From a virus, in the IMG/VR virus record IMGVR_UViG_3300020477_000060, positions 1-40,327 of that record: DNA of 40,327 bases. One strand, 5' to 3'. The first letter of the stretch is position 1. Each line of letters opens with the position of its first letter. Position numbers and translations under genes: made by a program. The notes beneath the pieces were generated by a model. It was not told the DNA's origin and did not search any database. It saw only the letters and a program-made list of their open reading frames with translations. Positions 26,939 through 30,362 of this stretch are shown here, piece by piece.

Positions 26939-29407
26939 CTATGCGAAAAAGAAAGGTGAATCTCTCACCATGTTAATATCCAAGTCTCCCTTCATGGGTG
27001 GACTAGGTAATGCTCCTTCTGGTACTACCATTGAAGCATCTCTGAGAAACTCATCACAAACATCCCAACTGTTGTACATTTCAACAAAGGACTCTCGTAA
27101 GAGTTTCTGCATTAATGGCATTTGTGCCACTAATGATCCGTAGGAATCATGAATCATTGTTACTTGATTTAATCCTTGATCCCTGCATTTCTTTAAAGTG
27201 AGTGTTAGATGACTTGCATCAAGACTATGTATTAGATTTGGTGGAGTTGCGTTACCTACTTTCCAGCTATCTTGCTTATTACCTACTGGTGTTCCTTGGA
27301 TGTGTGCCATTATTAATTTACCATCCAGAACTGTTTTAATTTTTCTTGATCTAACCTCTGGGTAATTTTGGACTACTACAAAACCACTAGGTGTTCTCCA
27401 TTGAACAGGTACTCCCTTTGCTATAACTTTCCTTGATACTTCTTTAATCCATTGCATACCAATAGTTGCCGCTTTTACTTTTTCTTCTAATGCTTTCTTT
27501 ATTGGTGTAACTAACCATCTTGATTCTTTAAAAGCATCAGCAACTCTTTTACCACTTTTGAAAGGCCAATATTCCCCAGTATTTTCCACTACATAACTAT
27601 TTAGATACTCTGTGTACATGTGACTAGTTCCACCATAGGGAAATGTCATAACTATTTTCTTCAACATCTTCCTATTAATTAAACTACTCTCTAACCAATC
27701 TCTTGCTAGTGGTTCATTGGAATTCTTTAGCTCATCTATAACTGCATCGGCAACTTGCTGGTACAAATCCTGTGGTTTATCTGTTTCGGTGAGATTACAA
27801 TAAAAACCTGTCTCAGCATCACTTAGAATAGCTGAATAATGTTGAATACCATTTTGTGAACCATCTGTGTGTATCCAATAATTTGATTTATAACCTAATC
27901 CATTATTTTTGTATTTTTTCCATTCCTTGCAGAACGCTAAAAATTGCCAAGGTTCATCTGCTTCTGTCCAAAACTTACAATCAAAAGGATGCTTAGAACT
28001 TTCTAAAATTGCTGGTGTGTTATGCTCTACCCATCCTACTCTTTGTTTTATTGAAGCTTTATCAAAACCATATAAATTTGCTCCTGCAACTGCTAGAGCA
28101 TCCACTTGATCTTGTTCTGTAACAGGCATTCCTACTGCACTTTGTAAAAGTGACTTAGACCAATCTGGACCCTGTGGATGTAAGAAGTTGTGCATGAGGT
28201 AATATCTACCTCTGTAATCACATTGGGCTACATAGTTAAATCTTTTGTGTTGCATTAAATCCTTTGCCATTTGCAAACCCCTGACAAACTGCAACCTTCT
28301 AGAGTAAATCTGATTGTTTTTCCTCATTAACATGGCATAAGGTTTAGCCCACTCATCCCATATTATTTTTTGTTCATCTGTTAATGTTTTTTTAGGTGTG
28401 CCAGGAAAAGGACATTGTGGTAATTGGTAAGGATCTCTAGTAGGTATTCCTTCCCAAGAATCCCCACTTTCATAAGCTCTTTCCATTACCTGAAACATAG
28501 AAGTATTTATACTGAATTCAGTTTGTTGCATTTGGTTCAATGCTTCATAAACCAAAGGCATTTCTACATTGTCTAAATCTTGATATCCAGATTTCTTGTG
28601 TAGCTTAATTGCTCTCAAACCTTTTAAATGACTAGTGTAATAACCACCACCTAGTGTTTTCTCTTGCCAATCCCTAGGTGTTACAACACAAGGCATGTAT
28701 TGAGTTGCAATCTTCTCTTTATGTTTCTCAAGTTTTTCAATCCAATCAATTGCTGATGGATTAGCTACAACCATATTTATGGTTTTCTTTTTATTTACAT
28801 AATTAGGTATTATGTTTATAAGTCCTGTTTCTCTATGAATTAGGTGAATTAAAATTTTACCCAACATGACCTTATCGGCATCATCCAACGTAAGTTCATG
28901 TAAATTTAATTCTGTTTTTCTAGAGAGTAGCCAAGTCATAGCATTTTTCTTGCGATACCTTGGGTTTCTTTTCTGATGCTCTGACTCTAAGACTTTCTTA
29001 AAATAATTTGGATTCTCTGCACGGAAAATACGCAACCTATATTCATCTTGTATAGAATTACCTATAGTTCTGGCAACTCTCATTTCAGGATGTTGTTGTG
29101 AAATGCTATCTAAAGTACAAATCAATGCTAGGTAGGCTATTGTTTCATCTTCTAGTCTTAAAGAATCAACAACATCTATTAGGTGAGTAGCGTATGCTGG
29201 ATGTCCTTTTATTCTCCTTAGTTTCCAATTATAAAAAGCAGTAGCTACTGGTTGTACTGCTTCTGACATAATAAAACGTACAGAGGGGAGTCTAGTCCAT
29301 GACTCTGAATTCTTCGCATCTTGTGAACCCCTCTGGTAACGCTTTTGACCTATGCGTTTACCTTCTAGTTCAAGGCTTAACTGCTTTTCCAGTACGTTTT
29401 GATACAT
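26939..29407 (-). CDS. Single-subunit DNA-directed RNA polymerase (T7 gp1-like)
   Basis: 822 residues (T7: 883). Catalytic residues are in place: Asp515 in HTDGSQNGIQHYSAILSD (T7 Asp537), Arg579, Lys583 and Tyr591 in INRKMLKKIVMTFPYGG (T7 Arg627, Lys631, Tyr639), and Asp754 in MIHDSYGS (T7 Asp812). The protein ends SPFFFA, keeping the C-terminal Phe-Ala foot. The promoter-specificity region (about 690-710, KTVLDGKLIMAHIQGTPVG) differs from T7, so its promoter cannot be read from T7 rules. Its start overlaps the zinc-ribbon gene by 38 bases. A host-type promoter at 31456-31484 is the likely driver of this gene block. Confidence 0.97.
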   Translation of the reverse strand: MYQNVLEKQLSLELEGKRIGQKRYQRGSQDAKNSESWTRLPSVRFIMSEAVQPVATAFYNWKLRRIKGHPAYATHLIDVVDSLRLEDETIAYLALICTLDSISQQHPEMRVARTIGNSIQDEYRLRIFRAENPNYFKKVLESEHQKRNPRYRKKNAMTWLLSRKTELNLHELTLDDADKVMLGKILIHLIHRETGLINIIPNYVNKKKTINMVVANPSAIDWIEKLEKHKEKIATQYMPCVVTPRDWQEKTLGGGYYTSHLKGLRAIKLHKKSGYQDLDNVEMPLVYEALNQMQQTEFSINTSMFQVMERAYESGDSWEGIPTRDPYQLPQCPFPGTPKKTLTDEQKIIWDEWAKPYAMLMRKNNQIYSRRLQFVRGLQMAKDLMQHKRFNYVAQCDYRGRYYLMHNFLHPQGPDWSKSLLQSAVGMPVTEQDQVDALAVAGANLYGFDKASIKQRVGWVEHNTPAILESSKHPFDCKFWTEADEPWQFLAFCKEWKKYKNNGLGYKSNYWIHTDGSQNGIQHYSAILSDAETGFYCNLTETDKPQDLYQQVADAVIDELKNSNEPLARDWLESSLINRKMLKKIVMTFPYGGTSHMYTEYLNSYVVENTGEYWPFKSGKRVADAFKESRWLVTPIKKALEEKVKAATIGMQWIKEVSRKVIAKGVPVQWRTPSGFVVVQNYPEVRSRKIKTVLDGKLIMAHIQGTPVGNKQDSWKVGNATPPNLIHSLDASHLTLTLKKCRDQGLNQVTMIHDSYGSLVAQMPLMQKLLRESFVEMYNSWDVCDEFLRDASMVVPEGALPSPPMKGDLDINMVRDSPFFFA

Positions 29408-29591
29408 ATATCCCTAACTTCCTGTCTAGGATAAGCTCATCCGTTACTTTTAACGATTCTACTTCTAATTGCACTCTTGCAATTGCTATATACTTATTAC
29501 TACAAGAGCATTCAATAATACTACTACCAGAATGTTCCCTGTGTTCTATGTGTCTTTTACCACAATGAGGACACTTACTTTCTACTCTCAT
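29370..29591 (-). CDS. Small zinc-ribbon protein, unknown
   Basis: 73 residues starting MRVESKCPHCGKRHIEHREH; the pair CPHC and the pair C-S-C at residues 28-30 with intervening His residues suggest a zinc ribbon, followed by a beta-type domain (KYIAIARVQLEVESLKV). It is the gene just upstream of the RNA polymerase and overlaps its start. Its stop-start neighbour is the Na/Pi transporter (29591). A nucleic-acid-binding role is possible but unproven. Confidence 0.65.
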   Translation of the reverse strand: MRVESKCPHCGKRHIEHREHSGSSIIECSCSNKYIAIARVQLEVESLKVTDELILDRKLGIYVSKRTGKAVKP

Positions 29592-30070
29592 TAAAACCTT
29601 CCTATTAACTTAGATATTTGATTAACAAAAGGTAATAAACATATTGCCATTAATGTGTTAACTCCTGTGTGTACAATAGCAACTTGTTTAGTTATTCCTG
29701 TTGGCATACCATCTGATACAAGTAATCCTGCCAACCATATAGTTCCAGTAGTACCTATATTAGCCCCAAGTATACAAGCAATAGCAGAAGGTAAAGGTAA
29801 GATGCCACTAGCAACTAAACCAATTATAGCAGTTGTACTTAGTGAACTAGATTGCCAAAGTAACGTACACACAATCCCCCCGATAAACATATAATATGGG
29901 TTAGACATAAAGTATTTAAGTTGTTCTACATCACCTAAAGACTTCATGCCACTAGCAAACATTTTTAAACCTATGTAGAACACAACTAATCCAACAACTA
30001 TACTTACAACTGGACTATCCAATAGTAGTTTCCTCATATACTGCTGGTTTAAAGTTTCTGTCATAGTCAT
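29591..30070 (-). CDS. Na+/phosphate cotransporter, single-repeat (PF02690-like)
   Basis: 159 residues, about four or five membrane segments. The repeat signature of the NptA/PNaS family is unmistakable: GLVVFYIGLKMFASGMKSLG, then WQSSSLSTTAIIGLVASGIL with the QSSS motif (73-76), LGANIGTTGT (101-110) and HTGVNTLMAICLLPF. Cellular proteins carry two such repeats (often plus a PhoU domain) in about 300-550 residues; this one has one repeat and would have to work as a dimer or modify a host carrier. ATGs at 30070, 30064 and 30037 are possible; an AGGA five bases before 30064 favours that one. It looks host-derived, an auxiliary metabolic gene for phosphate uptake. Confidence 0.88.
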   Translation of the reverse strand: MTMTETLNQQYMRKLLLDSPVVSIVVGLVVFYIGLKMFASGMKSLGDVEQLKYFMSNPYYMFIGGIVCTLLWQSSSLSTTAIIGLVASGILPLPSAIACILGANIGTTGTIWLAGLLVSDGMPTGITKQVAIVHTGVNTLMAICLLPFVNQISKLIGRF

Positions 30071-30362
30071 CCTGTTCTTCTTTTTTTATAAACAGTTCCC
30101 TTTGCTTATCATGTATCATCTGTACACACGCAGAATAACCAGCAAGATCAACTAAGTTGTCTTCTTTATGTCTGTACACTTCTCTGGCTATTTTCATACC
30201 TGCTAACATAAGTGCTACTTTCTCTGGTGGTACTGCATCTGTATCTAGTATGACACCCCAAATAGTTCCTATTCTTTCACAATTATCTAATGGGTGATCA
30301 TAACTCCATTGTCTATCACCATTAACTAATCGTTCTGCTTGTTGATTAACTGACTCTTTCAT
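30015..30362 (-). CDS. DUF6378-like conserved phage protein
   Basis: 115 residues. A GDRQWSYDHPLDNCERIGTI start and a VALMLAGMKIAREVYRHKED...DLAGYSACVQ core match the small all-helical phage family (R..YG.......iW, K.aR, D..iD.aGY) that I know as DUF6378. No biochemical function is established. It overlaps the transporter start by about 50 bases and the upstream gene end by 17. Confidence 0.75.
   Translation of the reverse strand: MKESVNQQAERLVNGDRQWSYDHPLDNCERIGTIWGVILDTDAVPPEKVALMLAGMKIAREVYRHKEDNLVDLAGYSACVQMIHDKQRELFIKKEEQDDYDRNFKPAVYEETTIG

Follow-up and report, generated by a model that had tools for sequence, protein, structure and literature searches.

The window analysed here spans the whole of a 40,327-base virus record. 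Its minus strand carries a tightly overlapping operon that includes, in this order, a DUF6378 gene, a half-size open reading frame with an ATG start, a 73-aa ORF and an RNA polymerase gene. The DUF6378 gene ends at 30015, and the 3' end of the half-size ORF is a TAATG at 29591 that overlaps the start of the 73-aa ORF. The features of this region are as follows.

30015-30362, minus strand: upstream flanking gene, DUF6378, 115 aa (PF19905, E 2.9e-21)
29591-30070, minus strand: single-repeat PF02690 ORF, 159 aa (profile match and model)
30020-30070, minus strand: residues 1-17 of this ORF, overlapping the 3' end of the DUF6378 gene
29594-30019, minus strand: transporter core, residues 18-159, the exchanged cassette (comparison with relatives L308-L314)
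29942-30013, minus strand: predicted membrane helix 1, residues 20-43 (model)
29810-29899, minus strand: predicted re-entrant hairpin, residues 58-87 (58-72/75-87; model)
29843-29854, minus strand: QSSS motif, residues 73-76 (sequence)
29717-29794, minus strand: predicted membrane helix 2, residues 93-118 (model)
29747-29767, minus strand: GANIGTT motif, residues 102-108 (sequence)
29600-29698, minus strand: predicted helix 3, residues 125-157, with H134 and N138 (model)
29370-29591, minus strand: downstream flanking gene, 73 aa, CxxC-containing and Zn-ribbon-like (weak Lar-like match, PF14354, E 5.5e-4, below the cut-off)
26939-29407, minus strand: T7-like RNA polymerase, 822 aa (phrog_414, E 2.4e-206)

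The window also encodes a T7-like DNA polymerase, a primase/helicase, head, tail and terminase proteins, and an integrase. The initial annotation had placed the half-size gene in the early operon just before the RNA polymerase; the operon was borne out by our analysis, and the direct adjacency was not, as the 73-aa ORF lies between the two genes.

The PF02690 profile matched the window protein once, over residues 31-131, with E 1.9e-17 and a score of 64 bits (cut-off 29.1). The NCBIfam model NF037997 scored 54.3 against a threshold of 50 and was covered only at positions 3-93 of its 294, and a comparison with the PHROG families gave no match. In a sequence search, both repeats of zebrafish SLC34A2a matched the phage protein (i-Evalues 6.7e-11 and 2.6e-6), while the phage halves share approximately 22-31% identity with the sampled cellular repeats. 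The QSSS and GANIGTT motifs are strictly conserved. On this sequence evidence, the window gene encodes a real, intact single repeat of the PF02690 (SLC34/NptA) fold, in agreement with the earlier description of one complete repeat with both motifs in place.

The AlphaFold2 model of the window protein, whose input alignment combined phage halves and cellular repeats, had a mean pLDDT of 92.3 and a pTM of 0.77. The modelled order is a helix, a short helix (residues 48-56), a broken hairpin whose tip holds QSSS, a helix carrying GANIGTT, and a helix carrying H…N. In a modelled cellular two-repeat homologue, repeat 1 has the same order of elements, which recurs in the second half without the short helix and with an extra C-terminal helix; the two repeats are inverted and are predicted to have three membrane helices each. 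This is the architecture of the Na/Pi cotransporters of PF02690 (SLC34; NptA/YjbB-type), to whose sequence family the phage half belongs: a helix, a QSSS re-entrant hairpin, a G(A/T/S)NIGT helix, and an H..(F/V)N helix. The phage chain consists of a single repeat where SLC34, NptA and YjbB have two, and it is too short for the extended C-terminal part that the common bacterial forms of 500-600 aa possess. A Foldseek search against the PDB and viral models returned nothing below E 0.001. Among the weak matches listed by VIA-align, the best row was 9x2m (Z 7.8), and the anion transporters 4r0c YdaH, 8uvc NaDC3, and 8zl2 INDY had Z scores of 3.6-5.1; SLC34A2a was absent from the weak matches of both fold searches, and these matches, which are not decisive, are not counted as evidence for the fold.

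The early-operon slot of the half-size gene (29591-30015) is exchangeable, with intact genes on both sides. In the seven nearest relatives of the window (L308-L314), whose RNA polymerase is about 80% identical, this slot holds no PF02690 gene; six of them have a Zn-ribbon-like CxxC...CxxC ORF of 67-73 aa there, and one has nothing, indicating that the half-size gene is an accessory cassette. Similarity to these relatives ends at the DUF6378 stop codon and returns where the next gene begins, the approximate limits of the cassette, so the core was exchanged as a clean unit. The first 17 residues of the window ORF, which overlap the DUF6378 gene, are resident sequence and correspond to the opening of the small ORF that relatives have in this slot. 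Thus, the transporter proper begins near residue 18.

The half-size form was found in all of approximately 270 viral loci, some overlapping, on several kinds of phage backbone. These scans were ranked subsets, the wider ones keeping the best 80 of more than 500 relatives per scan, and a rare two-repeat phage gene may exist. In one scan of viral contigs with 43 relatives, every complete ORF was half-size with a common end point, and one repeat was present in every complete copy of the first set of viral ORFs (114 loci) and in 152 further complete ORFs of 142-214 aa. When two-repeat cellular proteins served as the query, viral contigs still yielded only half-size genes. A second PF02690 half was sought in the fetched viral loci (up to about 16 kb) and was not seen, and a 177-kb virus record had a single PF02690 match and no partner half. 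Purifying selection on the core is strong, the codon comparison giving a median dN/dS of 0.057 over 349 pairs.

The ordinary cellular PF02690 genes among the fetched ORFs have two repeats. A first scan of genome contigs with a single protein as the query returned no relatives. In the cellular genomes scanned, 52 of 190 genomes of one bacterial class and 26 of 60 of another carried PF02690, and the ORFs were of two-repeat size except for one partial frame of 153 aa and one MAG contig that resembles a phage. The contrast drawn in the initial annotation between two cellular repeats and a single phage repeat therefore holds for these genomes, apart from those exceptions, and for all complete viral ORFs examined, and the search of viral contigs that it proposed gave half-size genes throughout. 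It had also named relatives with a full-length gene at this place as evidence that the ORF is a broken end, and the relatives carry no such gene. That the cellular relatives have two repeats is the sole point in favor of a broken remnant; with the uniform size and end point of the viral copies, the purifying selection and the cassette comparison against it, a broken or artefactual gene was ruled out, and we regard the chance of a remnant as negligible. In addition, half-size genes with about 69% identity were present in two contigs binned as Chloroflexi NAT137 (L045) and Flavobacteriales SZUA-1004 (L046), which look like phage contigs binned with bacteria. Unannotated records named as Listeria or Staphylococcus phages (H1-H8, e.g., OR844989.1 and OR846721.1) have PF02690 matches with less than 60% identity and may be bacterial contigs.

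A single repeat with three membrane helices would need an inverted partner to rebuild the transport site, which favors an antiparallel homodimer. Two copies would insert in opposite orientations and pair, and the dimer would restore both QSSS hairpins and both GANIGTT helices, which in cells come from a single chain, and would import phosphate with sodium during infection. We consider that an antiparallel homodimer carrying Na+ and phosphate has about an even chance of being the working form; the substrate could also be another anion. The homodimer and the aid to phosphate supply suggested in the initial annotation are plausible. Lone repeats with fused inverted-repeat relatives or analogues are likewise found in EmrE/SMR, Fluc, and DUF606, which differ from the phage half in being unrelated in sequence and fold (PMC3962082, PMC3755343, PMC9574504). 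In DUF606, homodimeric, heterodimeric, and fused inverted-repeat forms coexist (PMC3962082). Unlike these systems, relatives of the phage half may produce two isoforms of opposite bias from the two starts of one gene.

Many relatives carry a Lys-rich N-terminal extension (MKKKDRKLYDSWKYK..., MKVSKKAKLIKKV..., or M..LWKKV..), after which a Met immediately precedes the core. The extension is translated, as judged from pN/pS values of 0.20 and 0.33. In KKV-type extensions, 35 of 42 clusters use AAG for the Lys codon within the SD-like AAGGT; AAG occurs at 45 of 134 (34%) other Lys codons of the extension and at 116 of 311 (37%) Lys codons before GTN in neighboring genes (Fisher p ~1e-8). Synonymous shuffles gave z scores of -5.5 and -8.4 at the internal Met for two extension types, indicating SD-like sequence beyond the amino-acid need, and from -2.7 to +8.3 at nine core Met sites. 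The related sequences are not independent and these statistics overstate certainty, an effect reduced by 92% clustering and within-gene controls. A first Shine-Dalgarno test comparing the internal Met with core ATGs was not significant (p 0.066) because core Met codons often follow SD-like Gly codons, and it was replaced by the codon-level tests. At core Met 45 and 68 (P0001 numbering), SD-like sequence is avoided in the preceding codons (z +8.3 and +5.9), as would fit selection against internal starts at these sites. Taken together, these codon patterns suggest that two start codons yield a long and a short product in most relatives, the window gene not being one of them.

The median K+R bias is +3 for the long form and -2 for the short form, and the sign changes in 72 of 78 two-start clusters; by the positive-inside rule, the two products are therefore predicted to insert oppositely. 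In most relatives, long and short products could thus give both orientations from one gene. We regard as possible, at a tentative level, that one gene supplies both partners of an antiparallel SLC34-type dimer, with the long Lys-rich product N-in and the short internal-start product N-out. The window gene has a K+R bias of -2 and lacks the combined signature of extension and internal start, and the 28 single-start clusters among 126 also lack it, so the two-start pattern is not the mechanism of every member. As a precedent, the dual-start N-terminus of the lambda S holin carries extra positive charge that alters its topology (PMC9636201). As in the relatives, the charge is added by the upstream start (PMC9636201); lambda S differs from the half-size protein in being a lysis protein, with no known sequence relation. 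A holin-like role in lysis timing or superinfection exclusion with a dual start of this kind would suit the small size, the three membrane helices, and the start pattern of the relatives. However, the transporter motifs are conserved at the dN/dS noted above, and the neighbors of the half-size genes are replication, nucleotide or nutrient genes and, in the window, DUF6378, the Zn-ribbon-like ORF and the RNA polymerase, rather than lysis genes, which makes such a role highly improbable.

The K+R bias of the single-start clusters is one-sided (-4 to -1), and this speaks against a dual topology that arises simply from balanced charge. SemiSWEET-type transporters are parallel dimers of one repeat, and the consistently negative bias of the short-form core and the single-start members predicts one orientation, as expected for a parallel oligomer that serves as an ion leak or channel or carries another anion. 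In contrast, the two-repeat relatives have inverted repeats of three membrane helices each, and both motifs are strictly kept, as expected if the repeat supplies both halves of one site. We consider a parallel oligomer unlikely on balance. Small membrane proteins often regulate transporters, and the half-size protein might join or modulate a two-repeat Na/Pi carrier of the host as an extra subunit, activator or inhibitor. That precedent and the many bacteria with such carriers, according to the counts given above, are in line with this action; however, the family is absent from most scanned genomes, the low identity to the sampled cellular repeats is unlike that of a part matched to a host protein, and the binding motifs are intact. 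Action on a host carrier is therefore doubtful, and the antiparallel homodimer is kept as the preferred reading.

Among the carriers of the half-size gene are T4-like myoviruses that are relatives of Pelagibacter phage HTVC008M and Methylophilales phage Melnitz, T4-type phages that encode gp59 and gp32, others whose DNA polymerase resembles that of large phages, and phages with ribonucleotide reductase genes. In other carriers, the half-size gene lies beside an HMO-2011-like primase, helicase, and DNA polymerase, and the annotated neighbor clusters contain replication, nucleotide, and metabolic genes. PF02690 genes have been reported in eight HMO-2011-type genomes (subgroup I), with a proposed role in phosphate uptake (Qin et al., 2022; PMC9038755). 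The passage on these genes calls the product a sodium-dependent phosphate transport protein and is silent on its size (PMC9038755). They very probably belong to the same half-size family because half-size genes adjoin the HMO-2011-like replication genes; the window phage itself is T7-like with an integrase and not of the HMO-2011 type. Phage PF02690 genes as such are already known (PMC9038755); the start-site pattern is new here. No description of the half-size nature or of the start-site pattern was found in the literature searched, which covered few subscription papers.

A full-length ammonium transporter gene (L007:6500-7654; PF00909, E 1.3e-100) adjoins the half-size gene in one carrier, and this cluster recurs in four other loci (L046, L081, L097, and L135), which suggests a phage nutrient-uptake pair. 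The cyanophage genes pstS and phoH have been proposed to aid phosphate supply, and they code for a binding protein and an ATPase and not for a Na+-coupled carrier. The phage half may likewise serve phosphate supply and differs from them as a predicted Na+-coupled carrier; none of the cyanophage records in the phage collection searched with the half-size protein matched. Several unrelated phage groups may carry a minimal Na+-coupled nutrient importer, unlike pstS and phoH. Pho-box-like sites upstream of the half-size genes showed no excess over shuffles.

Many secondary transporters consist of two inverted repeats fused in one chain. The origin of such chains is an old question for which few extant single-repeat cases are available, and phages seem to make from a single small repeat what cells assemble from two fused ones. 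The half-size form was found here almost only in phage contigs, unlike the cellular SLC34, NptA, and YjbB proteins, and a large single-repeat relative of SLC34 that is apparently confined to phages makes the repeat-fusion question testable for a medically important fold. The internal-start pattern offers a specific mechanism, open to checking, by which a single gene could provide both orientations; if true, a one-gene, two-topology transporter would represent in living form the stage that preceded the fusion of repeats.

In an unrooted tree from approximately 115 alignment columns, the phage halves formed one group (100/98), as did the cellular N-halves (94/90) and C-halves (100/96). This three-way split means that the single repeat could predate the fusion or could have arisen when one half was lost long ago. 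The tree did not support a recent origin of the phage halves from any sampled cellular transporter. When the zebrafish SLC34 repeats were added, the phage group stayed and the clean N/C split was lost. The two SLC34A2a fragments fell together on long branches, a placement judged unreliable, in a tree without the extra cellular loci intended for it, which the motif filter had missed.

Two further features were observed around the half-size genes. A CTATATA-like motif lies about 10-16 nt before the outer ATG in L003, L031, L077, and L134, and is possibly the promoter of a short-leader transcript; it was dropped as a general feature, being present only in some T4-like carriers. In phage contigs, a tryptophan-halogenase-like gene (L104:8454-9983; PF04820, E 3.8e-94) comes immediately after the half-size gene, and the same contig region is present in L008 and in L009/L107.
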